Positions 13,241 through 37,183 of a stretch of 37,189 nucleotides of DNA are shown here, piece after piece (the first letter of the stretch is position 1; the number at the start of each line of letters is the position of its first letter). Location of the stretch: positions 1 through 37,189 of IMG/VR virus record IMGVR_UViG_3300008119_001212; one strand, given 5' to 3'. The position numbers and the translations under genes are program-made. Under the pieces are notes generated by a model that worked only from the letters and a program-made list of their open reading frames with translations, was not told the origin of the DNA and did not search any database. This DNA comes from a virus.

Positions 13241-13251
13241 GAATATACAAA
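13241..13251 (-). promoter_or_regulatory. Promoter-like motif TTTGTATATTC, very close to the start codon
   Basis: Exact copy of the motif only 5 bases upstream of the ATG at 13235. If TATATT acts as a -10 element, the mRNA would start at or near the start codon, giving a nearly leaderless transcript. Confidence 0.55.
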
Positions 13252-13278
13252 GAAAGCCTGGCAGAGCCAAGCTTTTTA
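13252..13278 (-). terminator. Intrinsic terminator (repeated type)
   Basis: Coding strand GCTTGGC, 3-base loop, GCCAGGC, then TTTCTTTG leading into the next promoter motif. It follows the gene at 13300-13551. Confidence 0.65.
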
Positions 13279-14849: not shown

Positions 14850-14862
14850 TGTTTATTTGTGT

Positions 14863-15780: not shown

Positions 15781-15796
15781 AACTTATTTTTGAGTG

Positions 15797-15807
15797 GAAT
15801 ATACAGA
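15797..15807 (-). promoter_or_regulatory. Promoter-like motif TCTGTATATTC
   Basis: Near-consensus copy 16 bases upstream of the clamp-loader ATPase ATG (15780). Confidence 0.55.
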
Positions 15808-15834
15808 GAAAGCCTGGCAGAGCCAAGCTTTTTT
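15806..15834 (-). terminator. Intrinsic terminator (repeated type)
   Basis: Coding strand GCTTGGC, 3-base loop, GCCAGGC, then TTTCTC and the next promoter motif. It follows the gene at 15862-16938. The stem is identical to those at 13256 and 23167. Confidence 0.7.
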
Positions 15835-20392: not shown

Positions 20393-20420
20393 TGGAAAGC
20401 TGGGCATCCTAGCCAAAGCT
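20392..20420 (-). terminator. Terminator-like hairpin overlapping the polymerase stop codon
   Basis: Coding strand AGCTTTGGC ... GCCCAGCTTT, an imperfect stem (AGC..GGC with GCC..GCT) around the TAG at 20409-20411. The T-tract is short. It is probably a weaker member of the same terminator-promoter series. Confidence 0.5.
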
Positions 20421-23135
20421 AAAGAAATCGTCCACGAATGTGTTCATGCGTAGCTCCCAACCTATATCGGAGTACAGTGTTTCAAGCTTATTGCGCATGA
20501 TTGAATCAAATAGTCCTTCACGGTCAATGTATTTGTTTATGATTTCGGTTATTTCTGGCATATCGTTGTATCCATTGAATCCGATTACATCGATCTTGTA
20601 TGGGTTTGGTTTGAGTTGTGCGTAGTACATTTTGTCTCCAAGTGAAAATTCCGGGTATTTTGCGGATTGTTTCTTGAACCGAATGAAATCATTCGTGATG
20701 ATGGCGGCTTTAGTGTTAACCGGACATTTTTTCTTGAGTGTCGAGAATAACTCACCTGGCATGGGTGCGCGTTCAATGTACTCGCCTAGTTTTTTAAGTC
20801 CGGTTGGTTTGAGTAGGTGCTTCCAATCTATGGTGTTGAGTGATGATTTAAATGCGAGTACATCTTTGTCTATGTCTGCTTTTGATTTACCGAATAGTAT
20901 GTCCTTGATTACCTTCTCGCCGAAGTTGCGGAATAGGGGAGGGAAGTTTGATTTCATTAAGTCGAGTCCTTTCATTTCGAGTTCCTCAATTTCAACACCT
21001 TCCTTGTTTACAATGTACATTGCATACCTACGTTTACCAGACCAGTATGCCTTTTCCGCAATTACTTCCTGCTTTAACTCGAAGTAATGTTTGTCGCGCA
21101 TGTTGAATAAATCTAAAGTCATACCGTTTAGGTTATTGTTTGCCTGGGATTGCAGCTCATCTGTTAATAGCAACAATTTCTCAATTTTTAACTTACGATT
21201 GTTTATATCCAGGTCTGGATTGCGATGTATGAGTAGATCAGTCAATTCCATGTACAGGGAATCGGTGTCGCTGGCTTTTACATACGGGGTGAGTTCTTTC
21301 CCTACTTGATCGGAAATGTATTTGTTTACAAATATGATGGATTCCTGGGTTAATCTCTGACCACTGTTAGTGATACCCGCAGAGCATATTTTAAATCCAT
21401 CAGTAAAACGCCATGAGTTAATGGCATACGTACCGTAAAGTGCATTTTGTAAGATTTTGAAGGCCATCTGATATAGGTCAAATAACTTATAGTCGTCCCA
21501 TTTTTCCTCTTTTCCTGCTTTCTTTTTAAGTGCACGATAATGTTCACGTTTCAAAAACCAGTCCTCCAATACCTCACACGCTATGCTCTTGATATCGGTG
21601 CGGAAAAATGCCCCACTAGCAGATATGGTCCAATTGTTTTTCTCAATTAGTTCAATTAATTCACCCACCGCAATGGTAGCACCTTTTAATTTATATGTAT
21701 ATTTGTCTAGTTTCTGGATTTTAATGATTTCAGCAGGGTCGCGTTTTTTGAGTTGCTCGAGTGAATTATATTGTTCGTAATTGTTTATAGTTACAATACG
21801 TCCTACCAATGTTTCCACACCCAAATTCAATGATTTGATGATGGATGGGTATAGTGAGGTAAAGTCAAGGTCAGACAAATTTGAATACAAACCTGGTACT
21901 GGATCCAATAAGTAACCACCCGCATATGAATCGCTTTTACGAATTGAATGGGTCTTACGTTGCATATAAGCTCCAGATGTGGTTTGGATAATGGCCATGT
22001 TTCCTTCAAGGCTGTGTATCTTTCCGGAAATGGTAGGGGTACCACGTTGATGTATGACATCGTCCCCAACTTCAAATTCACGTATTGATGGGTTAGTGGT
22101 GGTTGGTTTGTTTGGTGCAACTATGTCCTTTCGTTTCAAATAGGTCAATATAGCGCCCTCATTTAACGCAGTATTGTAGTATATTGACTCATAGGGCGTA
22201 TGACATATATGCGAAATTAATATGGTTAACTCAATGAATTTCAGTTTGTCTTCCAACGCTTCTAGTATTTCAACATCGCGAATGTTGTAGTCTATGTATT
22301 TGTTTGGGTCTTCTCGAAACAATGTATCCAGGTTACCATTGTATTCAATTTTGCCTAACTTGGCGTATTTTTCTCCAATGTCTCCCAACTTGTACGACGG
22401 TTCCTCTTTCATGATGTACTTTTTAAGTAGCAACATGAAATCCAAACAATTGATTAAACCAATGCGAATTGGTGAATTCGGATTGTTTGGGTTCTCGTCA
22501 ATTTTACCGATTGGAGACAAGCGATACACATCATCACCCAAACGTTTTTTAATGCGATAGTACAAGTATGGCATATCGAAATAGTCCGAGTTGAAGCCAA
22601 CACATATGGTTGGATCCATCTGTTCCCATTTGTTTAAAAATTTACGCAACAATGTATTTTCATCGATACATGGTACAACCGATTTACCTTCCGCGGATAC
22701 TTCCTGGATTTGGTTTTGCTTGTCCAAAATGAAACATGTCTTTTCCTTTGTGGTTGCATCAATTAATGCAATTGCGGTTATTTCAGCATTTGCTTCACGA
22801 ATGGTGGTTGGGTTAAGTGCGCCGATGATTTCAATTTCGATATCCAGGTATACCAAATTGTGGTAGGATGGCATATCGTCTGTCTCGTAGTATAAATCGC
22901 GCAACAAAACGAGTTCTTTGTCTATGTCTTTTTCCAAAATGGTGGGGTCCTTCCAATCGTATTTGCCGGAAATGGGGGAACATTTGTCTCCAAATAGGGT
23001 TGTATGCTCACCATATTCGTCTAACTTGTATACGGTTGGGCGGTATTGGAATTTGTTTATGCCACCCTTGTCATCGCGGAGAAAGTAGTGGTATGCGTCT
23101 TCTCCGTTGCGTGAAAAATATACACTTTGAAACAT
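20409..23135 (-). CDS. gp43: Family B DNA polymerase, T4 gp43-like
   Basis: 908 residues. The proofreading exonuclease has YLDIEIE (Asp98, Glu100), GFNSDYFD (Exo II, 180-187) and YNIRD (Exo III, near 283-287). Polymerase motif A is DFTSLYPSII (424-433), motif B is KILQNALYG (560-568), and motif C is SDTDS (622-626), followed by KRRYAMYIVNKEG as the KxY motif. Length matches T4 gp43. Between the exonuclease and motif A, about residues 350-405, an extra stretch FEVGDDVIHQRGTPTISGKI to SIRKSD looks like an inserted small beta-barrel. It replicates the phage genome with the clamp and loader encoded just downstream. Confidence 0.95.
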   Translation of the reverse strand: MFQSVYFSRNGEDAYHYFLRDDKGGINKFQYRPTVYKLDEYGEHTTLFGDKCSPISGKYDWKDPTILEKDIDKELVLLRDLYYETDDMPSYHNLVYLDIEIEIIGALNPTTIREANAEITAIALIDATTKEKTCFILDKQNQIQEVSAEGKSVVPCIDENTLLRKFLNKWEQMDPTICVGFNSDYFDMPYLYYRIKKRLGDDVYRLSPIGKIDENPNNPNSPIRIGLINCLDFMLLLKKYIMKEEPSYKLGDIGEKYAKLGKIEYNGNLDTLFREDPNKYIDYNIRDVEILEALEDKLKFIELTILISHICHTPYESIYYNTALNEGAILTYLKRKDIVAPNKPTTTNPSIREFEVGDDVIHQRGTPTISGKIHSLEGNMAIIQTTSGAYMQRKTHSIRKSDSYAGGYLLDPVPGLYSNLSDLDFTSLYPSIIKSLNLGVETLVGRIVTINNYEQYNSLEQLKKRDPAEIIKIQKLDKYTYKLKGATIAVGELIELIEKNNWTISASGAFFRTDIKSIACEVLEDWFLKREHYRALKKKAGKEEKWDDYKLFDLYQMAFKILQNALYGTYAINSWRFTDGFKICSAGITNSGQRLTQESIIFVNKYISDQVGKELTPYVKASDTDSLYMELTDLLIHRNPDLDINNRKLKIEKLLLLTDELQSQANNNLNGMTLDLFNMRDKHYFELKQEVIAEKAYWSGKRRYAMYIVNKEGVEIEELEMKGLDLMKSNFPPLFRNFGEKVIKDILFGKSKADIDKDVLAFKSSLNTIDWKHLLKPTGLKKLGEYIERAPMPGELFSTLKKKCPVNTKAAIITNDFIRFKKQSAKYPEFSLGDKMYYAQLKPNPYKIDVIGFNGYNDMPEITEIINKYIDREGLFDSIMRNKLETLYSDIGWELRMNTFVDDFFSFG

Positions 23136-23151
23136 AACTTGAATTTTATTG

Positions 23152-23162
23152 GAATATACAAA
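23152..23162 (-). promoter_or_regulatory. Promoter-like motif TTTGTATATTC
   Basis: Exact consensus, 16 bases upstream of the DNA polymerase ATG, fused to the T-tract of the preceding terminator. Confidence 0.62.
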
Positions 23163-23188
23163 AAAAGCCTGGCGGAGCCAAGCTTTTG
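23160..23188 (-). terminator. Intrinsic terminator fused to the polymerase promoter
   Basis: Coding strand GCTTGGC, TCC loop, GCCAGGC, then seven T residues and GTATATTC. This is the clearest example of the terminator-promoter unit. It follows the gene at 23207-23449. Confidence 0.78.
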
Positions 23189-23460: not shown

Positions 23461-24012
23461 TTATTTTAATTTACAATTGTTAATTTCGTCTTGTGTGAAG
23501 AATTGCGTTAAGTTCGGGCTGAAGTATTTTACGTTTTTCATGACTTTCATATCATCGCGATATACAACATAACCATCTCCCACTTTCTCGAAGTGGCATG
23601 GACGACCTTGCTGCTTAGAGCGTACTTTAACGGTTTCGATGGCATCCTCTTCGGTCATACATATTTTGGATAAATTAGAGGCTTGCACCTCTGCGTATCC
23701 TTCCAAAAATCTATCTTTCAAACCGAATACCAATGCACCATTTCCAGTGCAGACATATGTGATATCTAACAATGCATCGAATATCCCCACTATATCATTG
23801 TCCGCGATGGATTCTTTCAATTCGTCTAGTTCTTCCTGGATGAAATCAACTACAAACTTTGCGTCATCTGGGTTAATGGTTGGGGTGGTTCTGTTCTGCC
23901 ATTCTTTTCCCATTAACGTATTGAATTCTTCCACTTCCGAAATGAATGGTACATAGTTTGGTTTGTGTAAGCCAACACTGAAATCTGCTAATTGCTGAAA
24001 TATTTTCTTCAT
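23461..24012 (-). CDS. MazG/PRA-PH-like nucleotide pyrophosphohydrolase
   Basis: 183 residues. The core is FVVDFIQEELDELKESIADN followed by IFDALLDITYVCTG, giving the EExxE and DxxxD metal-binding helices of the all-alpha NTP pyrophosphohydrolase superfamily. A C-terminal region with HFEKVGDGYVVYRDDMKVMK is typical of phage phosphoribosyl-ATP-pyrophosphohydrolase-like members. It would clear or convert nucleotides, and its position between folE and the polymerase suggests it tunes nucleotide pools during replication of modified DNA. Substrate unknown. Confidence 0.78.
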   Translation of the reverse strand: MKKIFQQLADFSVGLHKPNYVPFISEVEEFNTLMGKEWQNRTTPTINPDDAKFVVDFIQEELDELKESIADNDIVGIFDALLDITYVCTGNGALVFGLKDRFLEGYAEVQASNLSKICMTEEDAIETVKVRSKQQGRPCHFEKVGDGYVVYRDDMKVMKNVKYFSPNLTQFFTQDEINNCKLK

Positions 24013-24014: not shown

Positions 24015-24725
24015 CTATTTTAATTTAATCATTTCCATTACTTCTTGCTTTGCTGTTTTATCATGGTTAGCAAATACACCGGATACCTCAGATGTAACCA
24101 TAGATGCACCTTGATGCTTCACCCCCCTACACGAGACACAATTATGTGCAGAGTCAATTACTACCATAACGCCAATATTTCCTTCGCATATTTTGTTGAT
24201 AGCGTTGTGGATGGCAACGGTTAATTGCTCTTGTATAGCACCGCGGCGACCATACAACTCAACTGTTCTGTTAAGTTTGGATAAACCTATCACTTTCCCA
24301 TCTTTACCTGGGATGTATGCAATATGTACAACACCTTTGATTGTTTGGTGGTGATGTGAGCATTGACTGGTTAATGCTATGTTTTTTTCTAGCACGATGC
24401 CCTGGTACCCGTCGTGTGGGAACGATGTAACTGGTGACATGATATTGTATCGGCCCGCCCATAAATCGTTTACGTATGCTTTAGCGACACGACGCGGAGT
24501 GTTTGATGAATTCGGGTCTTCTTGCCAATTGCAACCCAATGCGGTTAAAAAATTACCGAAATGTACTGTTGCATCTTCGATGATGGCGCTTTTTTCTTCA
24601 TCGTTTAATGAACGGTGCTCACCAGAGTCTAGCAATGCTTTCAATTGTGTGGAAATACCGTTTGCAAATCCAGGTGTTGCAATTTCGAGGTCTTCCACTC
24701 GTACTGTCTTTTCGTTTCTACTCAT
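24015..24725 (-). CDS. folE: GTP cyclohydrolase I (FolE)
   Basis: 236 residues. TPRRVAKAYVNDL, then LTSQCSHHHQTIKGVVHIAYIPG with Cys-His zinc-site residues, GLSKLNRTVELYGRRGAIQEQLT, and SAHNCVSCRGVKHQGASMVTS with the second zinc Cys are all standard GCH I motifs. It converts GTP to 7,8-dihydroneopterin triphosphate, the first step towards preQ0. The usual SxCEHH reads SQCSHHH, a Ser for Glu change next to the metal site. It heads a transcript with its own promoter-like motif and is followed by the MazG-like gene. Confidence 0.93.
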   Translation of the reverse strand: MSRNEKTVRVEDLEIATPGFANGISTQLKALLDSGEHRSLNDEEKSAIIEDATVHFGNFLTALGCNWQEDPNSSNTPRRVAKAYVNDLWAGRYNIMSPVTSFPHDGYQGIVLEKNIALTSQCSHHHQTIKGVVHIAYIPGKDGKVIGLSKLNRTVELYGRRGAIQEQLTVAIHNAINKICEGNIGVMVVIDSAHNCVSCRGVKHQGASMVTSEVSGVFANHDKTAKQEVMEMIKLK

Positions 24726-24743
24726 ATGTTCTTGTTTTTATGT

Positions 24744-24754
24744 AAATATACTAA
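24744..24754 (-). promoter_or_regulatory. Promoter-like motif TTAGTATATTT
   Basis: Variant copy 18 bases upstream of the folE ATG (24725). No strong terminator precedes it here. Confidence 0.45.
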
Positions 24755-24774
24755 ATTGAATTGCGGTATCCAAG

Positions 24775-25275
24775 CTAAACTTTGAAAATGGATGATAAAT
24801 TTCGACAATATCCAATATTGTCTAACCCGTAACCAAACACCCAGTCTTTTTTGATTTCAATACCATATATGAATGGGTAGGTTGGACGCTTACAACGGTA
24901 GCGTTTAAGTAAAGTAACTGCCGTTAACGACGCAGGATTATGCGATTGTAAGTGGGAATAAACAGCGTTCATAGTATTGCCCGTGTCGAAAAAGTCATCA
25001 ACAATATACACGTGTTTTCCAGTCAAATCCATTTCCACGTCTTTGAGTATTTGTATATCGGATTGTTCCTGCCCGTTGTATGATTTAACGCGCATGAAAT
25101 CGCACTGGATATTCAAGTGGGTTTGTCTAACTAAATCGGCGAAAAATACAAATGCGCCGTTCAATAAACACACCATCACTACATTGTTCATGTCTGGCTG
25201 GTGTTTTTTAGTGATGGTGGCACCTATTTTTCGCACGTGGTGGTTGAGGGATGCTTTGCTTATTAATTCGTTCAT
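24775..25275 (-). CDS. Hypoxanthine/guanine phosphoribosyltransferase-like protein
   Basis: 166 residues. VMVCLLNGAFVFFADLVRQ is the loop I region, YNGQEQSDIQILKDVEMDLTGK the flexible loop, and VYIVDDFFDTGNTMNAV the PRPP-binding motif (usually EDIIDTG). KKDWVFGYGLDNIGYCRNL near the end matches the purine-binding and dimer segment of Hpt. It would join guanine or hypoxanthine to PRPP. It sits between folE and queE, so salvage of guanine released by DNA base exchange is an attractive inference. A general nucleotide-salvage role is the alternative. Confidence 0.82.
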   Translation of the reverse strand: MNELISKASLNHHVRKIGATITKKHQPDMNNVVMVCLLNGAFVFFADLVRQTHLNIQCDFMRVKSYNGQEQSDIQILKDVEMDLTGKHVYIVDDFFDTGNTMNAVYSHLQSHNPASLTAVTLLKRYRCKRPTYPFIYGIEIKKDWVFGYGLDNIGYCRNLSSIFKV

Positions 25276-25296
25276 AACTAAATTGTGTTTTGTGGT

Positions 25297-26082
25297 TTAG
25301 ACATAGCGTTCTTTGTTGTATGCGATTATGTGATCGCGTCCTGTCATATTGTATCCTTTCTCCGCACACATTTCAAATACAATAGGATACATGCGAATGA
25401 GTTCCTCTCGGGTATCTCCTGCAGGCATGACGAATGTTTTGTCTCGTGGGATGTTTAATTGTACCCTGAATGCCTCAATTTCAATTAAATTGGTATCGGT
25501 TCCGTCCCACACTGGCTTATAGTGGTAGTCTTTGTGGTATGCTAGGGTTTGTTTAATAGCGCTCACGTTTAGTCTAAATTTGTTGTGTTGGTCGATCATT
25601 TTCTGATCGGTTGGTTTACCTTGTGGTGTAGGTACACCTATTTTAGGCACACTATTGTAAAATTTAGGTGACAATGAAATCAGATCAATTGGGTGATCCG
25701 TAGGTAAAAAATGGGATCCTTCAGTTTCAATAGTAACAAATATATTGTGCTCGCGAGCAAAATGCATTAACTCATTCACTAAATCACCATGCATTGTAGG
25801 GGAACCGCCAGTGATCATCATTTCATGTATCTGTGGATTGTCCTCGTACATTTTGATGATATCGTTGAACGTGTATTGCCCTTTCTCGGGGTGTATGGAG
25901 GTTTGCCATGAATCACACCATCCACCTTCGCCAAACCAACACCTGTGCGTGCATCCAGTGGTACGAACAATGATTGTGGGGCGGCCAACACGCGATCCTT
26001 CAGATTGAACTGCTCGATACAACTCTAGTACCGGTAGTACTTTATTGTAGTCGCTAATGCGACCTAGTTTATTTTCACTCAT
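25297..26082 (-). CDS. queE: 7-carboxy-7-deazaguanine synthase (QueE), radical SAM
   Basis: 261 residues. The start YRAVQSEGSRVGRPTIIVR and MITGGSPTMHGDLVNELM (the GGEP-like motif, here GGSP) are typical of QueE. The radical-SAM cysteines are Cys44, Cys48 and Cys56 in GCTHRCWFGEGGWCDSW, so the spacing is CX3CX7C rather than the usual CX3CX2C. It contracts 6-carboxy-tetrahydropterin to CDG, the third step of preQ0 synthesis. A promoter-like motif is 16 bases upstream, after a terminator. Function is clear; the cluster spacing is unusual. Confidence 0.88.
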   Translation of the reverse strand: MSENKLGRISDYNKVLPVLELYRAVQSEGSRVGRPTIIVRTTGCTHRCWFGEGGWCDSWQTSIHPEKGQYTFNDIIKMYEDNPQIHEMMITGGSPTMHGDLVNELMHFAREHNIFVTIETEGSHFLPTDHPIDLISLSPKFYNSVPKIGVPTPQGKPTDQKMIDQHNKFRLNVSAIKQTLAYHKDYHYKPVWDGTDTNLIEIEAFRVQLNIPRDKTFVMPAGDTREELIRMYPIVFEMCAEKGYNMTGRDHIIAYNKERYV

Positions 26083-26098
26083 ATAACTGTTTTTGATT

Positions 26099-26109
26099 AA
26101 AGATACAAA
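26099..26109 (-). promoter_or_regulatory. Promoter-like motif TTTGTATCTTT
   Basis: Two-base variant 16 bases upstream of the queE ATG, joined to the preceding terminator. Confidence 0.42.
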
Positions 26110-26137
26110 TGGCTCCTTGCGGAGCCAAATGTTTTTT
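26105..26137 (-). terminator. Intrinsic terminator, identical stem-loop at 35081
   Basis: Coding strand TGGCTCC, GCAA loop, GGAGCCA, flanked by AAACATT and TTTG. It follows the YadA-like gene. The stem, loop and both flanks are repeated exactly at 35081-35107. Confidence 0.75.
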
Positions 26138-26154
26138 GAATATGTTTGTTTAGA

Positions 26155-27177
26155 TTAAGCGGTTAATGTGGTTTTTTTCCAACCACCGTTTATGTAAACG
26201 TATAGGTATGAAGTACCACCTACAACTGCAGGTACCATTTCACCTTCTACTCCGGTCCATGCTGGTGCAGCTGATTGAGTTGCTACTACAATTGAACTAC
26301 TGTGTGTAACTTTGAATGCATCTTTACGTGCTACATCACTTGTTCCGTTACCTACAATAAATCTGGATGTTGTGTCACCTTGGGTATTAAATTGGCCAGT
26401 AACGTTTTGATACGAACCACTGGATATAGTAGAGTAACCACTAGCGTGGGATCCTAGGCCTATTGCAATTGTGGAAACACCTTCTGCGTGTGCATATTGC
26501 CCAGATGCAGTGGTTAAATTTCCTTCAGCGTGAGATCCTTCTCCACTAGCGTATGTAGTTGAACCTTCAGCGTGTGAATAATTACCCCATGCCTTTGTAT
26601 TACTTCCTTCTGCATGTGAATACAATCCATTTGATATTGAGGATTGACCTTCAGCGTGTGAATAATTACCGATAGCATTAGTGGATGAACCTTCTGCGTG
26701 CGAGCCCTCCCCAGTTGCTGTTGTAGTGTTACCTTGTGCGTATGCGTATGGACCTATTTTTAATGTGTTGAAACCACTAGTAAAATATGAAGCGGTTTGT
26801 GCTGTTGTAATATATGAAGCTGTAGCAGCAGTTACAACATATGAAGCCGTTTGTGCTAATGTGACATATGATGCCGTTTGTGCATTTTTAACATAAGATG
26901 CAGTTGCAGCATATGATGCGCTAGTTGAAATTGATGATGTTTCAGCGTATGATGAACTAACCTCGTAGTTAATTTCGTATGACGCGCTAATAGCGTATGA
27001 TGCAGTTAATGCTAATGTCGCGTATGAAGCAGTACCAACTACATTTCCTACAAAACCATCAGATGCGGTAAGCGATCCAGTGATAGCGTGCGAGCCTGTA
27101 AAGTAACCGAAATTATTGTCTAATTCGGTATGTGTAAGTGGTCGTTCTACAACGGAACGCAATGTTAAATTTCCCAT
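26155..27177 (-). CDS. YadA-head-repeat surface protein, probable tail fibre/adhesin
   Basis: 340 residues. After LRSVVERPLTHTELDNNFGY, a tail-associated start common in phages, residues ~45-135 carry repeats of TASYV with AQ/AA spacers. Residues ~150-265 carry at least seven SHAEG-type repeats (SHAEGSSTNAIGNYSHAEGQ and similar), the YadA/Hia head left-handed beta-roll. The end, residues ~300-340, has VEGEMVPAVVGGTSYLYVYI, a fibre-tip-like segment. It is probably a trimeric virion fibre that contacts the host. It has no secretion anchor, unlike true autotransporters. It interrupts the preQ0 gene set, so it may be a later insertion. Confidence 0.8.
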   Translation of the reverse strand: MGNLTLRSVVERPLTHTELDNNFGYFTGSHAITGSLTASDGFVGNVVGTASYATLALTASYAISASYEINYEVSSSYAETSSISTSASYAATASYVKNAQTASYVTLAQTASYVVTAATASYITTAQTASYFTSGFNTLKIGPYAYAQGNTTTATGEGSHAEGSSTNAIGNYSHAEGQSSISNGLYSHAEGSNTKAWGNYSHAEGSTTYASGEGSHAEGNLTTASGQYAHAEGVSTIAIGLGSHASGYSTISSGSYQNVTGQFNTQGDTTSRFIVGNGTSDVARKDAFKVTHSSSIVVATQSAAPAWTGVEGEMVPAVVGGTSYLYVYINGGWKKTTLTA

Positions 27178-27234
27178 TTTTTAAGTTTAGTTATACATAT
27201 TGATAAATTTGTGAAAGGTGTGACGGCATGTGGA

Positions 27235-27260
27235 TAAAAATGGCCCCTGTTTGGGGCCAT
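27235..27260 (-). terminator. Intrinsic terminator after the thioredoxin gene
   Basis: Coding strand ATGGCCCC, AAACA loop, GGGGCCAT, then TTTTATCC. A strong 8-bp GC-rich stem directly after the thioredoxin stop. Confidence 0.75.
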
Positions 27261-27263
27261 CTG

Positions 27264-27506
27264 TTAATTTAACATACCACGCAACTGACCTTCTGTCAGC
27301 ACACCCGATTGTTTTCCAACTGGGCGTCCATTTTCCACTACCACAATTGTGGGCACTGAACGAATTCCATGTTCAGATACAAGTTGTGGCTCTTGATCGA
27401 CATCAACGTATCGCACTGGGTATTCCCGGCTTATTGCGTCAATGGTGGGGCGGAATGATTTGCAAGGGTTGCAAAATGTACCGTAAAAGTAAATTAGTTG
27501 TTTCAT
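27264..27506 (-). CDS. Thioredoxin/glutaredoxin-like protein
   Basis: 80 residues, shorter than standard thioredoxin (about 105). It has a strand YFYGTFCNPCKSF with the redox pair Cys12 and Cys15 (CNPC rather than CGPC), VRYVDVDQEPQLVSEHGIRS, and the cis-proline SVPTIVVVENGRPVG. The fold resembles phage mini-thioredoxins that reduce ribonucleotide reductase or act as a general disulfide reductant. It lies between queD and the YadA-like gene and ends at a terminator. Confidence 0.85.
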   Translation of the reverse strand: MKQLIYFYGTFCNPCKSFRPTIDAISREYPVRYVDVDQEPQLVSEHGIRSVPTIVVVENGRPVGKQSGVLTEGQLRGMLN

Positions 27507-27560
27507 TTAATTACATAGTTAATGGTAACGTTACCGAATGTGGTTGATACAGTCCAGTGA

Positions 27561-28025
27561 CTACCCTTCGAATGATGCTGAGTTTCGTTCATGTTCATAT
27601 ACTTCTACTTTAGATACTCTAACACGCCCGTCTGTTTCGGCTTGTGTCCAGTTGTTAATTACATTGTATAAATGTTCAGCGAAACGCTCACATCCTACCA
27701 TAGGTAGTATGCGTAGTTGGATGATTCCGTCTGCATCCATTTGCTTGAAATGCTCTAAGTACGGATCGTCTTCTGCGATGATGGTAGTGTGGTCTAGCAA
27801 GTACGCGAAATAGTCTTTTGGGTTCATACCCTCAATTGTATGTTTTGCGCGTTTTGCTGCACCAAAGTCCATCACCCAATTGCGGTGATCTAGTTCGCCT
27901 TCGAACCATACGCGAAACGAAACCGCATATCCATGGAGAAATTTACAATGAGTACCGTCTGCTCCCCATTGTCTGAAGCATGTAGAGTACCCATCGTATA
28001 ATTTTGATGATGTAAATGTTGACAT
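27561..28025 (-). CDS. queD: 6-carboxy-5,6,7,8-tetrahydropterin synthase (QueD)
   Basis: 154 residues from the ATG at 28025 (MSTFTSSKLYDGYSTCFRQW); an upstream TTG at 28049 lies inside the promoter motif and is rejected. CKFLHGYAVSFRVWFEG has the zinc-binding HxH-type motif (here HCKFLHGY), NWVMDFGAAKRAK the conserved MDF, LLDHTTI the catalytic Asp-His, and CERFAEHLYN with VEVYEHERNSA the final catalytic Glu. It converts dihydroneopterin triphosphate to CPH4, the second preQ0 step. Confidence 0.9.
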   Translation of the reverse strand: MSTFTSSKLYDGYSTCFRQWGADGTHCKFLHGYAVSFRVWFEGELDHRNWVMDFGAAKRAKHTIEGMNPKDYFAYLLDHTTIIAEDDPYLEHFKQMDADGIIQLRILPMVGCERFAEHLYNVINNWTQAETDGRVRVSKVEVYEHERNSASFEG

Positions 28026-28039
28026 ATTGTTTTTTGGTT

Positions 28040-28050
28040 TAATATACAAA
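28040..28050 (-). promoter_or_regulatory. Promoter-like motif TTTGTATATTA
   Basis: One-base variant 14 bases upstream of the queD ATG at 28025. Confidence 0.5.
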
Positions 28051-28061
28051 TTTGTTTTGAG

Positions 28062-28217
28062 CTATACAAGTTCTTCTACAATGCCGATTACCTCGGATAA
28101 TACTAATGTAGATACGGCCATGTTAATGTCTATTAATATCAACACGTATCCGACTATACGTGCTCCGGATTTCACGAAGCTGACGATTTGGTGCATTTTT
28201 GGATCTGGTTGGTTCAT
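28062..28217 (-). CDS. Small membrane protein (51 aa)
   Basis: ATG at 28217, TAG at 28062-28064. The protein starts MNQPDPKMHQIVSFVKSGAR, followed by a hydrophobic helix (IVGYVLILIDINMAVSTLVL) and SEVIGIVEEL. The N-terminal segment QIVSFVKSG looks like a conserved phage small membrane protein of unknown function. It fits exactly between queC (ends 28230) and the queD promoter. Accepted on fit and composition, not homology search. Confidence 0.65.
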   Translation of the reverse strand: MNQPDPKMHQIVSFVKSGARIVGYVLILIDINMAVSTLVLSEVIGIVEELV

Positions 28218-28229
28218 GTTTATGTATGT

Positions 28230-28937
28230 TTAGTAATTGTACCGTGATTTAAATTCGTTCCACCCTTTTGCTCTCAATTCACATGCTGGACAAAATGGGT
28301 CTTCTGGTGTACCTTGTTCTGAGCTGAAACCCCACTCGTGTTGGTATGTTCTCTCTCCGTTGTAGCATGTATGGGATAACTCAATTACGTCCTCTAAACA
28401 TCCCTCGTCTAATGCCAATTTGAATGTGTCTGCTTTGTCTAAGTACATCAATGGTGTTTCGATTGATAAACCAGATTCTTTTTCTCCAAACACACCCAAG
28501 TTCATTACTTCCAGCAATGAATCAACGAAATCACGTCTACAATCGGGATATCCACTATAGTCCGTTTGACAAACCCCGGTTACTAGCGCATCAGCATTGG
28601 TTTTCAACGCATAAACATACGCATTGTATAGAAATATCCCATTTCTACCAGGCACAAATGATGACGGCAAGCCATATTTGTTTACTTGAGATACATCACC
28701 ATTTGATGTAAGTGCACTTTCCGCTAAGTAACCCAACGATTGGTCTAGGTTAACTACCACTTGTTTCACTCCGGTTTTTTCCAATATTTTAATGGACTGC
28801 TCAACTTCGATTGAATGTTTTTGCCCGTACTGGAATGTGATTGCTTCTACTGTTTCGTATCTGTTTAACGCCCAGTGTAAGCATGTAGTGGAATCTTGCC
28901 CACCCGAAAATACTACGATTGCTTTTCCTTTTTTCAT
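28230..28937 (-). CDS. queC: 7-cyano-7-deazaguanine synthase (QueC)
   Basis: 235 residues from ATG at 28937 (MKKGKAIVVFSGGQDSTTC); a longer frame reaches 28970 but lacks a good ATG. SGGQDST near residue 11 is the PP-loop. The C-terminal HTCYNGE, FCPACELRAKGW holds the four zinc cysteines. Central SFVPGRNGIFL and QTDYSGYPDCR are typical of QueC. It makes preQ0 from CDG, ATP and ammonia. No amidotransferase domain is fused. It precedes the membrane gene and queD. Confidence 0.93.
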   Translation of the reverse strand: MKKGKAIVVFSGGQDSTTCLHWALNRYETVEAITFQYGQKHSIEVEQSIKILEKTGVKQVVVNLDQSLGYLAESALTSNGDVSQVNKYGLPSSFVPGRNGIFLYNAYVYALKTNADALVTGVCQTDYSGYPDCRRDFVDSLLEVMNLGVFGEKESGLSIETPLMYLDKADTFKLALDEGCLEDVIELSHTCYNGERTYQHEWGFSSEQGTPEDPFCPACELRAKGWNEFKSRYNY

Positions 28938-28992
28938 ATTATTTTGTTTTATTTTCAAATATAACTCCAAATATTTCTTCTAAATTATCTAA

Positions 28993-29190
28993 TTATTCAT
29001 CTAAACCTTCAAATAAATAGTCTTCTTCATCTATGTATAAATTTTCTAAAATTATTCTTTCAAATGTTAATGAAACCAAATTAAGAAAATCATCCACAAA
29101 TTGAGGTTGATTATCTTTTATGAATTTGAGTGCTTTGTCTAAACGCCTCCCCATCCATACCAAATCACTTAATTCTTCCTCGTAATTCAT
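28993..29190 (-). CDS. Hypothetical protein (65 aa)
   Basis: 65 residues, acidic and helical (MNYEEELSDLVWMGRRLDKA, then FVDDFLNLVSLTFERIILEN, ending DYLFEGLDE). No motif recognised. It overlaps the upstream 60-residue gene by 26 bases and is the last of a run of coupled small genes before queC. Confidence 0.55.
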   Translation of the reverse strand: MNYEEELSDLVWMGRRLDKALKFIKDNQPQFVDDFLNLVSLTFERIILENLYIDEEDYLFEGLDE

Positions 29191-29347
29191 CTGCTATTTT
29201 ATTAATATTATTAACTAATAGGTCTATCTGTGCTTTAACCTCAGGACGAATATTTCCTGAATTTTCATTGATTCCCGCTAATTTACGCATACGTTTTCTT
29301 TCTTCGTATGCTCGAGCGGCAGTTTCACATCTGTTTTCTTGTTTCAT
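29165..29347 (-). CDS. Small helical protein with RMRKLAG motif (60 aa)
   Basis: 60 residues. KQENRCETAARAYEERKRMR then KLAGINENSGNIRPEVKAQI, followed by a helix ending ELRGRIK. The peptide RKRMRKLAGINE resembles the LRMQKLAGVITE tail of the 358-residue protein at 15862-16938, so it may be a shared interaction tag. Starts 4 bases inside the preceding gene and overlaps the next. Confidence 0.55.
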   Translation of the reverse strand: MKQENRCETAARAYEERKRMRKLAGINENSGNIRPEVKAQIDLLVNNINKIADELRGRIK

Positions 29348-29781
29348 ATGTAATTGTTTATAGTTATGCGTTTATTGTTTACTATGTCCCGGGATATATC
29401 CGCAAATATATTTTTCATTTGGTTGTGCAATGCGGGTAAATCATTGTAGTCGATATGGTATGATGGTGTATAGTAATCGGCTTCAACCATGCTAATCAAA
29501 TCTTCCAATTGGTCTATCTCACCCAATGGCTCCACCCACAGCAAATTGAACAGGTCATGTACTTTTAGGGTACCTTTGGAATAACGTTTGATTCCAGCCA
29601 TCCACCCATCAAATTTACCGCGCCAATGATTTTGGTTGCGGGAATCTTTGTACATTAGTATTTTGAGCAATTCCATGCTTGTGTTGAGGCTGATGTCGCG
29701 TACTTTGTCCATAGCATTTTTGCGATGGTATGCTAGCTCAAATATACGTGTTTCCATCAGCATGTCCAACAGTTTGATCAT
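29344..29781 (-). CDS. Hypothetical protein (145 aa)
   Basis: 145 residues. It starts LLDMLMETRIFELAYHRKNA and contains HWRGKFDGWMAGIKRYSKGT near residue 52 and LPALHNQMKNIFADISRDI near 115. Soluble, mixed charge, mostly helical. No family recognised. The ATG overlaps the upstream stop by 4 bases and the stop overlaps the next ATG by 4 bases. Confidence 0.65.
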   Translation of the reverse strand: MIKLLDMLMETRIFELAYHRKNAMDKVRDISLNTSMELLKILMYKDSRNQNHWRGKFDGWMAGIKRYSKGTLKVHDLFNLLWVEPLGEIDQLEDLISMVEADYYTPSYHIDYNDLPALHNQMKNIFADISRDIVNNKRITINNYI

Positions 29782-30059
29782 AATTTGTCTGCTATTTGTT
29801 TTATTGTGGCTAAGTCCTCGTCGCTTAAACGCAAACGTGCCATGGTATCGTTTAGTTTAGATATAGTGTTTAAATATTCTGCGTCAGCGTATGGTAATTC
29901 AATATCATCGACTACTTGGTTTGGTTTAATATAGTCGCTATCGGTTAACCATTCAATGACTTCTTCAATGTCACTGGATGAACAGTTTTCTAAAAATTCA
30001 TCTACGTCAATGTCAATGTCTACATCGACATCAATATTGTATGATCTAATTTCTGGCAT
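29778..30059 (-). CDS. Acidic protein with Asp-x-Asp repeat N-terminus (93 aa)
   Basis: 93 residues. After MPEIRSYN comes a run alternating Asp with Val or Ile (IDVDVDIDIDVDEFLEN, residues 9-25), which would form an extended, strongly acidic strand. The remainder is helical and acidic (EEVIEWLTDSDYIKPNQVVD, then LNDTMARLRLSDEDLATIKQ). The acidic strand could mimic DNA or bind metal, or be part of a protein interface; that is speculation. The ATG is 11 bases after the upstream stop. Confidence 0.6.
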   Translation of the reverse strand: MPEIRSYNIDVDVDIDIDVDEFLENCSSSDIEEVIEWLTDSDYIKPNQVVDDIELPYADAEYLNTISKLNDTMARLRLSDEDLATIKQIADKL

Positions 30060-30070
30060 AGCTATATAAA

Positions 30071-30325
30071 TTAAAATGGTAAATCATAGTCTTGCATATC
30101 ACCTACTGATGGTGCATCATCTGGGTGTGTATCTCCAAAGAATGCGTCCAGGAAATCTTTCGGGTACAAATACACGAATCCAGCGTATGTTGGGTTAGAT
30201 ACAGCGCGTGTTTTTAAGTTCAAACGCAATTTTCTAGCTGCTCCCGCTACTTTTTTTCCAAGTTCAGGTCCAGCTGCTTTACCTAAATAGTCGTACAACG
30301 ACAAAAATGTTTCTCTTGATTCCAT
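30071..30325 (-). CDS. Hypothetical protein (84 aa)
   Basis: 84 residues. FLSLYDYLGKAAGPELGKKV then a basic GAARKLRLNLKTRAVSNPTY and an acidic tail HPDDAPSVGDMQDYDLPF. The acidic DxxLPF end resembles the C-terminal tail peptides by which some phage single-strand binding proteins recruit partners, but no OB-fold is visible. Function unknown. It follows a promoter-like motif 27 bases upstream. Confidence 0.6.
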   Translation of the reverse strand: MESRETFLSLYDYLGKAAGPELGKKVAGAARKLRLNLKTRAVSNPTYAGFVYLYPKDFLDAFFGDTHPDDAPSVGDMQDYDLPF

Positions 30326-30352
30326 AACCTATATTGTTTTATGTATTTGATT

Positions 30353-30363
30353 GAATATACGAA
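30353..30363 (-). promoter_or_regulatory. Promoter-like motif TTCGTATATTC
   Basis: Consensus copy 27 bases upstream of the ATG at 30325; would drive the run of small genes towards queC. Confidence 0.55.
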
Positions 30364-30365
30364 TA

Positions 30366-30396
30366 AAAAATATGGGCTCCAAATTAGAGCCCGTTT
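30366..30396 (-). terminator. Intrinsic terminator with the dpdA stop codon in its loop
   Basis: Coding strand GGGCTC / GAGCCC, 6 bp with a 7-base loop that contains the dpdA TAA (30384-30386), then CATATTTTTTATTCG. Second example of a stop codon inside a terminator loop. Confidence 0.65.
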
Positions 30397-31178
30397 ATTT
30401 CGCGAAATCTACGCACATTGTACTCGAGTAAATCCAGGTTTACATCATCAATGTGTATGTCTTGAAAATTGTTCATGTTTGCCACTGGTTTTTTGGTTAA
30501 GCCCATGTCAGTGTAAATGGAACCCTCAAGTGTGGCCATAACTGGATTTGATGTGTCGATTGATTCGATGAATGGCATGTCTTTGTATAGTCCAAACTCG
30601 TACGGAAATGCAGTACCTAGTAAATGTACACGATCTGAATCACGCAATATGCCCTCTTCTCGCATTCTGGATATGGCTGTGAATCGCCCAATTGCTTTAC
30701 CGAAGTCTTTGTTTGGGTGTGGGCATAGCTCATTGTAGTACGATGCGCCATACGAGAATGCGAATTTCTTGTATCCTAAATCACGGTACGCTTGTACACA
30801 CAGCATTGCCTCGTGCAATGATTTTGCTTGAACTACGGCACATTTTGTGGTTTTGATTGGAACCGGCAATTTTGCCCATCTTCTCGCGTTTACAACTGAT
30901 GCATCGTAGTCTTCCCACACGTCCGGAACAAAAAATGTAGATGGCATTAGTATGTTTGTCCATTTAACTAATGTATTGTCGGGCATCGCATATCCCAATT
31001 CGTGTAAGCTGTTGTCGAGGTATATTTCGACACCGTTCTTTTGACATTTGAAGAAAAATTCACGGTATTTCTTGTTGTCCTCTAGCAAATGCGGAAGAGC
31101 ATATTGCATGTCATTGAATTCGAGGCTCTTTTCAAGTAGTGAAAATGGAGTTTCGTGGCTAACAACTATTTTTTTCAT
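30384..31178 (-). CDS. dpdA: DpdA-type transglycosylase that inserts 7-deazaguanine into DNA
   Basis: 264 residues, shorter than bacterial tRNA-guanine transglycosylase (about 375), with no zinc CxCxxC site. IYLDNSLHELG places Asp55 in the base-recognition position, FAFSYGASYYN and RVHLLGTAFPYEFGLYKDMP match the barrel strand GxP region, and SIDTSNPVMATLEG places Asp208 at the nucleophile position. This order fits phage DpdA, which replaces guanine in DNA with preQ0 or a derivative. The nearby folE, queD, queE and queC genes supply preQ0. A tRNA-acting enzyme is less likely, given the missing zinc domain. The assignment rests on recalled motifs and context. Confidence 0.75.
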   Translation of the reverse strand: MKKIVVSHETPFSLLEKSLEFNDMQYALPHLLEDNKKYREFFFKCQKNGVEIYLDNSLHELGYAMPDNTLVKWTNILMPSTFFVPDVWEDYDASVVNARRWAKLPVPIKTTKCAVVQAKSLHEAMLCVQAYRDLGYKKFAFSYGASYYNELCPHPNKDFGKAIGRFTAISRMREEGILRDSDRVHLLGTAFPYEFGLYKDMPFIESIDTSNPVMATLEGSIYTDMGLTKKPVANMNNFQDIHIDDVNLDLLEYNVRRFREINGL

Positions 31179-31197
31179 ATAACTTTAATTTTTAATT

Positions 31198-31208
31198 GAA
31201 TATACAAA
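31198..31208 (-). promoter_or_regulatory. Promoter-like motif TTTGTATATTC
   Basis: Exact consensus 19 bases upstream of the dpdA ATG (31178), following a terminator. Confidence 0.6.
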
Positions 31209-31234
31209 GGCTCCGTTACGGAGCCTAGGTTTTT
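31205..31234 (-). terminator. Intrinsic terminator before dpdA
   Basis: Coding strand AGGCTCCG, TAA loop, CGGAGCCT, then TTGTATATTC. A strong 8-bp stem whose short T-tract is part of the promoter motif. Follows the gene at 31234-31488. Confidence 0.65.
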
Positions 31235-33322: not shown

Positions 33323-33504
33323 GTTGTGCCGGTTATACAATGGTTGCTCGAGCAGTCCATTGCTTTCCCATGCAACGAGAAAGTCCAGTGAGCAGTTCTG
33401 ATGGTGTGACCACAGGATCTGGGCCTGTCAAATGGAATTGACAGGGGAGCAAAAGACACACCCTGGTACGCTGTTCATATGGGTAGCGTGGTGTGTACTG
33501 TCGA
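33323..33504 (-). ncRNA. Candidate structured RNA downstream of tRNA-Thr
   Basis: A 182-base stretch with no convincing ORF lies between tRNA-Thr and the terminator. It contains three separate hairpins: 33457-33462 with 33090-type partner 33490-33495 (CACACC/GGTGTG, with an inner 4-bp stem 33469-33472/33485-33488), a perfect 8-bp stem 33424-33431/33438-33445, and a 6-bp stem 33338-33343/33357-33362 with an inner palindrome. It would be co-transcribed with the tRNAs. I do not recognise it as tmRNA, hammerhead ribozyme or tRNA. Whether it is a functional RNA or a decayed tRNA tract is unknown. Confidence 0.4.
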
Positions 33505-33576
33505 GCCTCTGGCCGGTCACGATCCGACGACCTTTTGATTACAAATCAAATGCTCTACCAGCTGAGCTACAGAGGC
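33505..33576 (-). tRNA. tRNA-Thr (anticodon UGU)
   Basis: 72 bases with a 7-bp acceptor stem GCCTCTG/CAGAGGC, D arm AGCTCAGCTGGTAGAGC, anticodon stem TTTGA/TCAAA around TTTGTAA (anticodon TGT), and T stem GTCGG/CCGGC. The T loop is ATCGTGA instead of TTCRANY: the usual T54 and A58 are exchanged to A54 and T58. No encoded CCA. Reads ACA codons, useful for an AT-rich phage. Confidence 0.85.
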
Positions 33577-33670
33577 AATTTGGGTGGAATCAGACGCGTT
33601 CTGTCCACCGAGACCTCGTCGTTGTGGTTTATTACAACCCAGAGCGTACCGAGACACTATATATTTCAGC
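33577..33670 (-). other. Structured spacer between tRNA-Ser and tRNA-Thr
   Basis: 94 bases with a stem 33583-33588/33604-33609 (GGTGGA/TCCACC) extended by a 4-bp inner stem 33591-33594/33600-33603, and a second hairpin 33621-33625/33634-33638 (GTTGT/ACAAC). It is not a canonical tRNA: no T-arm consensus and the loop lacks T33. Possibly processing signals or a decayed tRNA. Confidence 0.35.
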
Positions 33671-33754
33671 AGAGGAAGCAAGATTCGAACTCGCGATACA
33701 TTGCTGTATGGTGCATTTCAAGTGCACTGGTTTTAGCCACTCACCCATTCCTCT
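33671..33754 (-). tRNA. tRNA-Ser (anticodon UGA)
   Basis: 84 bases, class II tRNA. Acceptor AGAGGAA/TTCCTCT, anticodon stem GTGCA/TGCAC around CTTGAAA (anticodon TGA), a long variable arm with ATACA/TGTAT, and T arm GCGAG TTCGAAT CTTGC. Discriminator G as expected for serine. No encoded CCA. Reads UCA codons. Confidence 0.93.
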
Positions 33755-33765
33755 GTGTATAATTG

Positions 33766-33838
33766 TACTCCGTGCGGGACTTGAACCCGCGCTTCTGCCG
33801 TGAAAGGGCAGCGTGTTAACCGCTTCACTAACGGAGCA
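33766..33838 (-). tRNA. tRNA-Glu (anticodon UUC)
   Basis: 73 bases. Acceptor TGCTCCG/CGGAGTA with one wobble pair, anticodon stem CTGCC/GGCAG around CTTTCAC (anticodon TTC), and T arm GCGGG TTCAAGT CCCGC. No encoded CCA. First tRNA of the unit; reads GAA codons. Confidence 0.93.
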
Positions 33839-34051: not shown

Positions 34052-34894
34052 TTACAAGAGATCTAAATCTACTCCATGTGTATCGAACCACCATTCCACT
34101 GGCATATCTGGATGTTTAACCACCAATCGCTCATATCGCGCTTTTGCTTTCGCTTGACGTTCCACCTCTTGGGTGAAAAATGGATGCTCCATGGTTCCGC
34201 CCTGTACATACAGTTCACGTAGCAATTTACGCAAAATATACCCTTGCTTTTGTGGTCCAGGTTTGTAGCCCGAGTCGATGATGCGCTCGATTGTTTCTCG
34301 CAGCGTATCCAGCGCTGACTTTACTTGTTCGCCATTTGCCATGAGCTCAAGTCGCTCCATGCCGAATCCAACATCTATGAATTGATCTAACGTGTTAACT
34401 ATGTTGCCTATTTCCACTCCATTTACATAGAATTCGGTACAGTAGCCTCCCATCTCACCATCCGACCAGATACATTCTGTATCTGTGGTGATGTTTAGGT
34501 GTGGATACGCATCGTACATGTGTCTCCACTCGTTTAGTTTGTCGGGGTGAATGGTGATTGTGTCTACTTTGATCTCGAGTACACGGGTGATGAAGTCCAT
34601 CCAAAAGTCAACCGCTTGTTGCATGGTGAGTGCACCAAATGAAAACAAGCCAAGCATGTTGAAGTGTAGAAGGTGTGTACCGTCTCCGATTTCCTCAATG
34701 TCCTGTAAACGTATACATGATTGTATGTTTGCTACAGTTGTGTTGTCCGGGTTTTTGAATTTGTGCTTGAATTGTTGCATACCCGCTGGGCAAAACAATG
34801 TAGTATCATCGTATGGGTTTACTTTGTTGTCGTGCTGGAATGGGATGGAATGCGATTCGCAGTATTGTTGGTACAGTGTGCGGATGTCTTTCAT
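34052..34894 (-). CDS. Stand-alone alanyl-tRNA-synthetase-like catalytic core
   Basis: 280 residues; bacterial AlaRS has about 875. The class II core is visible: DDTTLFCPAGMQQFKHKF, IQSCIRLQDIEEIGDGTHLL (motif 2 region, with Arg), FNMLGLFSFG, CTEFYVNGVEIGNIVNT, and IDVGFGMERL (motif 3; the family usually has VDTGMGLER). KQGYILRKLLREL matches the AlaRS GYVLRR segment. The editing domain and C-Ala domain are missing. It could aminoacylate a tRNA, or another acceptor, with alanine. It lies beside three phage tRNAs, none of them tRNA-Ala. The core call is firm; the activity is open. Confidence 0.82.
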   Translation of the reverse strand: MKDIRTLYQQYCESHSIPFQHDNKVNPYDDTTLFCPAGMQQFKHKFKNPDNTTVANIQSCIRLQDIEEIGDGTHLLHFNMLGLFSFGALTMQQAVDFWMDFITRVLEIKVDTITIHPDKLNEWRHMYDAYPHLNITTDTECIWSDGEMGGYCTEFYVNGVEIGNIVNTLDQFIDVGFGMERLELMANGEQVKSALDTLRETIERIIDSGYKPGPQKQGYILRKLLRELYVQGGTMEHPFFTQEVERQAKAKARYERLVVKHPDMPVEWWFDTHGVDLDLL

Positions 34895-35047: not shown

Positions 35048-35071
35048 AAATTATTGTTTTAAATTATATGT

Positions 35072-35082
35072 AAACATACAAA
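35072..35082 (-). promoter_or_regulatory. Promoter-like motif TTTGTATGTTT
   Basis: Two-base variant 24 bases upstream of the ATG at 35047, joined to the preceding terminator. Confidence 0.42.
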
Positions 35083-35111
35083 TGGCTCCTTGCGGAGCCA
35101 AATGTTTTTTT
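35079..35111 (-). terminator. Intrinsic terminator, identical stem-loop at 26105
   Basis: Coding strand TGGCTCC, GCAA loop, GGAGCCA, flanked by AAACATT and TTTGTAT. It ends the virion-protein unit at 36208-35127. The same sequence ends the YadA-like gene. Confidence 0.75.
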
Positions 35112-36276: not shown

Positions 36277-36735
36277 TTAACTTGGCCTGGGTAGATTAGG
36301 TAAGTAGTCAAATATACACGTTTGGTAAGTGCGTTCGAGGTGATGAAAATCGGAGTGGCAATTTTTGCATAGTACCACACATTTTGCTATTTCGTCCCAC
36401 ACTGCACGTTTTCCTTTGGTTTTTGCTAAGGTGCTAACATCACCGTCTTTGGTTGATGGGTCGAGGTGATGGAATTCGAGTAGATAGTACTTGTCGTTCC
36501 CGCATTTTTGACATGTTTGGGATGCCTTGTATTCTTTCAACTCGTTTAATGTTTTCTGGGTGTATGCTTGGGATCGAGAATGGTATCTTTTTTTGTGTTT
36601 GTTGTATGATTTAATGTTGGCGTCTCGTGAACATTGCTTGCATACACGCTGAAGTCCATCTGGTTTGGATTTGTTGCTGGAAAATAATGTGGTTTGCAGT
36701 GTTTCCTTGCATTTTGGGCATGTCTTAGTTTCCAT
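36277..36735 (-). CDS. HNH endonuclease, second tandem copy
   Basis: 152 residues. N-terminal zinc finger CPKC with CKQC (residues 5-37), a second Cys pair CQKCGNDKYY, and the HNH core LEFHHLDPSTKDG followed by LCKNCHSDFHHLERT. All catalytic histidines are present. Closely related to the next gene, with the same domain order. Probably a free-standing homing-type nuclease. Overlaps its neighbour by 11 bases. Confidence 0.85.
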   Translation of the reverse strand: METKTCPKCKETLQTTLFSSNKSKPDGLQRVCKQCSRDANIKSYNKHKKRYHSRSQAYTQKTLNELKEYKASQTCQKCGNDKYYLLEFHHLDPSTKDGDVSTLAKTKGKRAVWDEIAKCVVLCKNCHSDFHHLERTYQTCIFDYLPNLPRPS

Positions 36736-37183
36736 ATTGCGGGTCGTTTAGGTATGTGGCTAAGTTCATGTTTTCAGTGCGTTCCAGATGATGGAATTCA
36801 TAGTGGCAGTTGCGACATAGTGTCACACAAAGTTCAATTTCAGGCAATATATTGACTAATGGTGATTTGAACATAAAGTCAGCTATGTTGAAATTTTTCT
36901 TTGACGGGTCAATATGGTGGAAGTCTAGCACCCAGTATCTACTTTCACCACATGATTTACACGACAATGTACTCTTGTATTTGATGAATTCGTCTACGTA
37001 TTTCTTTTTACGTTTAGTGCTGTCTTCCAGGTATTTCTTTGGATTATTGCGGTATGCTTTTTGCTCATATAGCTTGCAGCAAGCTTTGCATATTCGATAC
37101 AACCCATCTGGTTGTTTCTTGTTGTTGCGAAATAAATCGATTGTTTTTGTTTCGCCACATTTGGGGCAATGTTTTGTTTCCAT
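36725..37183 (-). CDS. HNH endonuclease, first tandem copy
   Basis: 152 residues, paralogue of the downstream gene: CPKCGETKTIDLFRNNKKQP, CKACC, CKSCGESRYW, then LDFHHIDPSKKNF and CRNCHYEFHHLERT as the HNH core. The two copies have the same length and diverge mainly between motifs, so a tandem duplication followed by drift is likely. Starts 6 bases inside the right edge; upstream signals are not visible. Confidence 0.85.
   Translation of the reverse strand: METKHCPKCGETKTIDLFRNNKKQPDGLYRICKACCKLYEQKAYRNNPKKYLEDSTKRKKKYVDEFIKYKSTLSCKSCGESRYWVLDFHHIDPSKKNFNIADFMFKSPLVNILPEIELCVTLCRNCHYEFHHLERTENMNLATYLNDPQYGN

Follow-up and report, generated by a model that had tools for sequence, protein, structure and literature searches.

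Every deoxyguanosine (dG) in the DNA of the Campylobacter phages CP220 and CPt10 is replaced by dADG, the deoxynucleoside of 7-amido-7-deazaguanine (ADG) (PMC8306585), and a partial replacement of G, at about 32%, is known from phage CAjan (PMC6884629). CAjan, 9g, VpKK5 and MMDA13, which belong to the DpdA1 phages, carry FolE, QueD, QueE, QueC and DpdA in the neighbourhood of genes for a clamp and a polymerase. The Campylobacter phages were counted by Hutinet et al. among those with genes for preQ0 (7-cyano-7-deazaguanine) and without DpdA, and a DpdA-independent route was suggested for them (PMC6884629). In Flavobacterium phage immuto (NC_055915), QueC, QueD, QueE, a phosphoribosyltransferase, FolE, a MazG-like hydrolase, DpdA and GroES/GroEL occupy one region. 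Here we describe a linear virus record of 37,189 bases (IMGVR_UViG_3300008119_001212, positions 1 to 37,189), analysed over its whole length and called the window below, which very probably holds a phage 7-deazaguanine DNA-modification locus with the DpdA type of Firehammervirus and Immutovirus, in which guanine salvage may feed FolE; the chemistry is what we infer from its genes.

The window resembles immuto in the gene content of this region, but immuto differs in having QueF, a formyltransferase-like gene, a family A polymerase and a phosphoribosyltransferase of the Gpt type, and its DpdA is only 32% identical to the candidate described here. With CP220, a Firehammervirus, the window shares FolE, QueD, QueC, a 35% identical DpdA homologue (gp056), a family B polymerase and the lack of QueF, whereas in CP220 the pathway genes are scattered and no phosphoribosyltransferase accompanies them. 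The four DpdA1 phages, similar in gene set, differ in their DpdA subfamily, and in VpKK5 and MMDA13 FolE bears a fused Gpt-like domain where the window has a separate HGPRT. This HGPRT is like bacterial Hpt in family and catalytic motifs, and unlike it in being phage-encoded and placed inside a preQ0 gene cluster.

The DpdA candidate and the preQ0 pathway genes

The candidate DNA guanine transglycosylase, DpdA3-like (30384-31178, minus strand; 264 amino acids), exceeds no Pfam or NCBIfam cut-off and matches only unknown families in PHROGs. Its relatives among 50,697 phage records searched by tblastn number just 18, at 32-36% identity over 97-99% of the length: immuto, in which the gene is annotated as a DNA guanine transglycosylase, and Campylobacter Firehammerviruses, in which it is annotated as hypothetical. 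Identity is 35% to CP220 gp056 and 32% to immuto DpdA (E-values of 1e-31 to 7e-37). An AlphaFold2 model, computed from an alignment of 26 sequences drawn from 44 IMG/VR relatives, is confident (predicted local distance difference test score, pLDDT, 94.8). The 50 PDB fold matches listed for it, at E-values of 1e-7 to 1e-6, are tRNA-guanine transglycosylases (TGTs) together with the DNA preQ0 insertase DpdA (7ui4, rank 13), and the model thus has the TIM-barrel TGT fold; the structural comparison that the initial annotation had proposed as a check on this product came out in favour of DpdA. Among viral predicted structures it matches a protein of Cellulophaga phage phiST (template modelling score, TM, 0.84) and annotated phage queuine tRNA-ribosyltransferases.

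Two aspartates, D55 (codon at 31014-31016, minus strand) and D208 (30555-30557, minus strand), are invariant in 26/26 aligned DpdA-type sequences and are also found in CP220 and immuto, which bears out the earlier claim of two Asp residues at the expected positions. They belong to a series of invariant motifs, LDNS (D55), VPD (D86), VVQ (Q117), HLLG (185-188) and DTSNP (D208), whose order parallels that of the TGT motifs DSGGFQ, FDE, VQG, YLMG and FDCVLPTR. In the model these motifs stand at the ends of successive strands: D55 follows strand 52-54, D86 strand 81-83 and Q117 strand 111-116, while HLLG lies at strand 183-187 and D208 within strand 204-209. The CXCXXC zinc site, clear in two of the four bacterial TGTs compared, was not found in the candidate, and it was not treated as defining for phage DpdA. 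A link to TGTs by sequence only was tried and rejected, as Pfam, NCBIfam and phmmer against the PDB gave no match and a PDB profile search returned designed TIM barrels only. On sequence and model together, the protein joins the DpdAs of CP220 and immuto as a new member of their group. We take this group to be DpdA3, a subfamily that Cui and co-workers reportedly named in 2023 and tied to complete replacement of dG.

FolE, QueD, QueE and QueC are all present as full-length minus-strand open reading frames with profile matches, as the initial annotation had stated, and the preQ0 pathway set is therefore complete in the window. FolE, a GTP (guanosine triphosphate) cyclohydrolase I, lies at 24015-24725 (PF01227 2e-43; phrog_2197 1e-58), the QueE-like radical S-adenosylmethionine enzyme (7-carboxy-7-deazaguanine synthase) at 25297-26082 (phrog_2076 8e-46), the QueD-like 6-carboxytetrahydropterin synthase at 27561-28025 (PTPS 2e-14; phrog_2389 5e-37) and QueC, the 7-cyano-7-deazaguanine synthase, at 28230-28937 (PF06508 2e-61, above the TIGR00364 cut-off), where a tree places it as a short bacterial-type allele. 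Family matches at such E-values are beyond chance. For QueD an ATG start at 28025 is favoured over a TTG at 28049 (open reading frame 27561-28049). In order of transcription, on the minus strand, the genes are the DpdA candidate, QueC, QueD, a thioredoxin-like gene, a YadA-head-like gene, QueE, the HGPRT-type gene, FolE, a MazG-like gene, the family B DNA polymerase, a clamp-like gene, GroES and GroEL, and the order DpdA-QueC-QueD-QueE-HGPRT-FolE-MazG-polymerase is kept among IMG/VR relatives.

In the mechanism that we propose, FolE would take the first step, from GTP to dihydroneopterin triphosphate, and with QueD, QueE and QueC would yield preQ0 or ADG; after replication, DpdA would cut the N-glycosidic bond of guanine in the phage's DNA, D208 serving as the nucleophile and D55 as the acid/base, and would put in the 7-deaza base, one guanine being freed for each base inserted. 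Several observations weigh against this reading. D55 and D208 were assigned as the catalytic aspartates by motif order, not by superposition, and hhalign gave no alignment between the candidate and four bacterial TGTs; because this profile comparison failed, the link to TGTs rests on fold and motifs. The earlier statement that each pathway enzyme keeps its main motifs stands for FolE, with intact C-H-C metal ligands, and for the QueC P-loop SGGxDS; QueC has 3/4 of the usual C-terminal cysteines, and two enzymes depart from the expected pattern. The zinc-site motif of QueD is HGY both here and in the rest of the clade, against HGH in phage 9g, and in QueE the cysteine spacing is CX3C-X7-C rather than CX3C-X2-C, a form common to the phage clade. 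Finally, the window is a fragment, hence the absence of a gene from it is weak evidence, and QueF or tailoring enzymes may lie beyond its ends.

Guanine phosphoribosyltransferases beside FolE

Between FolE and QueE lies a gene that the initial annotation had passed over (24775-25275, minus strand), encoding an HGPRT-family 6-oxopurine phosphoribosyltransferase. It matches TIGR01203 at 9e-41 with 139 bits, slightly under the cut-off of 150 that its relatives in records L006 and L040 exceed, and its 56 PDB matches are almost all HGPRTs (best 5e-29). In an alignment of 19 sequences the phosphoribosyl-pyrophosphate loop VDDxxD[ST]G and the residues of the base and pyrophosphate sites are conserved. 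Catalysis by HGPRTs involves contact of one Asp with purine N7, a position at which 7-deaza bases have a carbon; this Asp is invariant in the alignment, which is in keeping with guanine, and not a 7-deaza base, as the predicted substrate.

Viral phosphoribosyltransferases of this kind accompany 7-deazaguanine genes with great regularity. Among the DpdA loci that span QueE and FolE (n=21), 16 have HGPRT, 2 have an enzyme of the Gpt type (xanthine-guanine phosphoribosyltransferase, NF006613), unrelated to HGPRT and in the same slot, and 3 have neither. Profile scans of IMG/VR found at least one of FolE, QueE, QueD, QueC and DpdA in the flanks of 79/80 HGPRT loci, with FolE at most 300 bp downstream of HGPRT in 55/80, and pathway genes at 74/80 Gpt loci, several of the six exceptions having sequence on one side only; none of the 80 HGPRT and 80 Gpt loci held both enzymes. 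Gpt adjoins QueE/FolE in immuto, FolE in a Brevundimonas phage and QueE in PA5oct; phiST has a Gpt match and also FolE, and four further unannotated records have Gpt matches. In 14 records of Vibrio, Sphingomonas, Stenotrophomonas and Pseudomonas phages, one of them unannotated, the match lies inside the FolE gene, beside DpdA. The fused N-terminal domain of the three that were inspected shares RGGVP, VDDIIDSG and the tail WVVFPWE with free Gpt proteins, though profile support is modest (1e-7 in VpKK5, 3e-3 and 1e-2 in the other two).

Guanine is the substrate shared by the HGPRT and Gpt families, and GTP is what FolE consumes. We suggest that HGPRT would convert the guanine freed by DpdA, together with host-derived guanine, to guanosine monophosphate, which host kinases would raise to GTP for FolE, and that in other phages the unrelated Gpt-type enzyme, free-standing or fused to FolE, would play the same role. 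Such a salvage loop is the simplest reading because one slot, linked to FolE, is filled by either of two distinct families of guanine enzymes and never by both, and we give guanine recycling a somewhat better than even chance. With similar, guarded confidence we propose that these enzymes are an overlooked component of the modification: each of the two families, HGPRT and Gpt, would have been recruited on its own, beside FolE or fused to it, and would send guanine displaced by DpdA back into the GTP pool from which the replacement base is made. The stoichiometric cycle that replacement across a whole genome calls for would thereby be closed. Degraded host nucleic acids could supply guanine to the same effect, and sequence gives no means of telling that source from guanine released by DpdA. 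No report of HGPRT with 7-deazaguanine in phages was found in the open-access literature, subscription papers lying outside the search, and within the literature covered the association is a new element of the locus.

The phosphoribosyltransferase might instead be a general purine salvage enzyme acting on degraded host DNA and RNA, its place next to FolE being a convenience of the operon. Phages often carry salvage genes, and the source of the guanine cannot be read from sequence; general salvage, however, predicts many unlinked copies, whereas the viral HGPRT and Gpt homologues stand almost exclusively beside 7-deazaguanine genes and Gpt-FolE fusions occur, so that we regard this account as unlikely, if far from negligible. 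Guanine recycling has its own difficulties: the scans of 80 loci used queries derived from the pathway, sampled close relatives first and lack a base-rate control (an RNA-ligase scan meant for this purpose gave only four loci and was discarded), and the pathway also occurs in 9g, CAjan, nt-1 and CP220, none of which has a phosphoribosyltransferase. Recycling is therefore not essential, and host enzymes may suffice.

The predicted base and its extent

Because of its homology to the window's DpdA candidate, CP220 gp056 (12001-12777 in the CP220 record), annotated as hypothetical, becomes a candidate enzyme and is, by sequence, likely to be the DNA guanine transglycosylase of the Firehammerviruses; it was the sole transglycosylase candidate found in CP220, where its gene is distant from those of QueC and FolE. 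By analogy with the precedent of CP220, replacement in the phage of the window may be complete. The predicted base is dPreQ0 or dADG, possibly in place of most or all guanine, a choice that is not set by sequence. We weigh both because CP220 has preQ0-type genes and the same DpdA type, without QueF, yet carries dADG. We see preQ0 as coming close to an even chance and ADG as only slightly less likely; the proposal of the initial annotation that preQ0 is the product hence survives as one option. The type of QueC was considered as a predictor of ADG versus preQ0 and rejected, since both types co-occur with the same DpdA and the QueC of CP220 is another short type. The initial annotation had also expected preQ0 to give resistance to many restriction enzymes. 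However, in plasmids modified by phage 9g DpdA alone, dPreQ0 stood at about 0.3% of G and did not stop EcoRI from cutting, protection being seen only with dG+ (PMC6884629), and broad restriction resistance of dPreQ0 should not be assumed.

The final base might also be a further derivative (preQ1, formyl- or methyl-preQ1, or G+) made by enzymes encoded outside the fragment, as immuto has QueF and a formyltransferase-like gene beside DpdA. Against this, QueF was found neither in the window nor in a 64 kb near-identical record nor in relatives of 156, 156 and 269 kb, and we think such a derivative improbable. QueC (235 amino acids) has no Gat fusion, and the earlier remark that QueF is not seen here agrees with our search. 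Weak QueF signals in the L020, L035 and 9g records are best taken as cross-matching by FolE.

A route at the nucleotide level, in which the HGPRT-like enzyme converts the 7-deaza base to a nucleotide and the phage polymerase uses this after reduction and phosphorylation, DpdA being secondary, would suit the adjacency of HGPRT, MazG-like pyrophosphohydrolase and polymerase genes, and complete replacement of the CP220 kind fits incorporation during replication. Yet the N7-contacting Asp of HGPRT is invariant, while 7-deaza bases carry carbon there, the enzyme adjoins FolE or is fused to it, where GTP enters the pathway and not where the end product leaves it, and the cluster includes a DpdA that has the TGT fold and retains the catalytic aspartates, which together make this route very unlikely. 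The least probable account, which we would give hardly any weight, is that the pathway raises queuosine in host tRNA and the TGT-like protein acts on tRNA; preQ0 is a precursor of queuosine and some phages have preQ0 genes without DpdA (PMC6884629), but the protein is homologous to the DpdAs of CP220 and immuto, has no CXCXXC site, is 264 residues long against about 375, and is accompanied by no QueF in the window. Modification of DNA rather than tRNA, as first proposed, is thus upheld by the DpdA fold and by homology to the candidate of CP220, a phage whose DNA is fully dADG. The argument from the phage tRNAs (Thr-TGT, Ser-TGA and Glu-TTC) is correct in that all lack G34 and uninformative in that other tRNAs could be targets as well.

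Gene exchange, neighbouring genes and biological meaning

The window and the near-identical phage G001/L004 have about 95-98% identity over much of the cluster. At 28238-29333 (minus strand), blastn shows clean breakpoints between flanks of 97-98% identity, and the counterpart in G001 is a non-matching segment of 795 bases. The QueC encoded there is distant and longer, and the C-terminal cluster of Cys is missing from it. Mapped onto the tree of DpdA, QueC types switch at least four times; QueE, QueD and the phosphoribosyltransferase likewise occur in alternative forms, and DpdA is the constant part. In a close relative (L005) one locus holds two QueD-like genes, at 13339-13758 and 14717-15151, one of them diverged.

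Other genes of the cluster, also on the minus strand, are a thioredoxin-like gene at 27264-27506 (PF00085 2e-15), a recurrent neighbour of QueD/QueE found in most relatives; a MazG-like/PRA-PH nucleotide pyrophosphohydrolase gene at 23461-24012 (PF01503 5e-8), which adjoins FolE here and in many relatives; and the gene of the family B DNA polymerase (gp43-like) at 20409-23135, which matches T4-like phage polymerases by tblastn. Between QueE and the thioredoxin gene, a protein encoded at 26155-27177 resembles YadA head repeats in a weak match under the Pfam cut-off (6e-4), and its similarity to the same place in L004 is short only. At 36277-36735 and 36725-37183 stand tandem paralogous genes for zinc-motif (HNH-like) proteins; relatives of the first adjoin QueD/QueE/QueC in L018 and L020, which suggests that the pair are mobile endonuclease genes.

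Elsewhere in the window, three phage tRNA genes (33503-33837) adjoin a gene at 34052-34894 whose 280-amino-acid product matches alanyl-tRNA synthetase in the N-terminal catalytic part only (PF01411 1e-21) and is kept in L004 and L005. A SIR2-family protein is encoded at 11344-12024 (PF02146 5e-33), and a run of glycosyltransferase, methyltransferase and sugar-isomerase-like genes at 2655-10882 resembles in kind the immuto region beyond GroEL. Intergenic repeats of about 38 nt, 66-97% identical, occur at 13240-13277, 15796-15833, 23151-23188, 26098-26135, 31197-31234 and 35071-35108; several read, on the minus strand, as a short hairpin rich in G+C and then TTTGTAT(A/G)TT, and such a layout is possibly that of combined terminator and promoter elements.

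Phages are known to conceal their DNA from bacterial defences by means of a guanine look-alike, and the locus described here would extend a DNA modification able to replace every guanine to a wide group of uncultivated phages. The QueC alleles that swap between close relatives provide natural pairs in which features of QueC can be compared for preQ0 versus ADG. A genome of 160 kb at about 39% GC has about 60,000 guanines, so that 100 progeny would call for about 6 million exchanges, a number comparable to or above the GTP pool of a cell. If the guanine is recycled, the cost of whole-genome guanine replacement would fall sharply.

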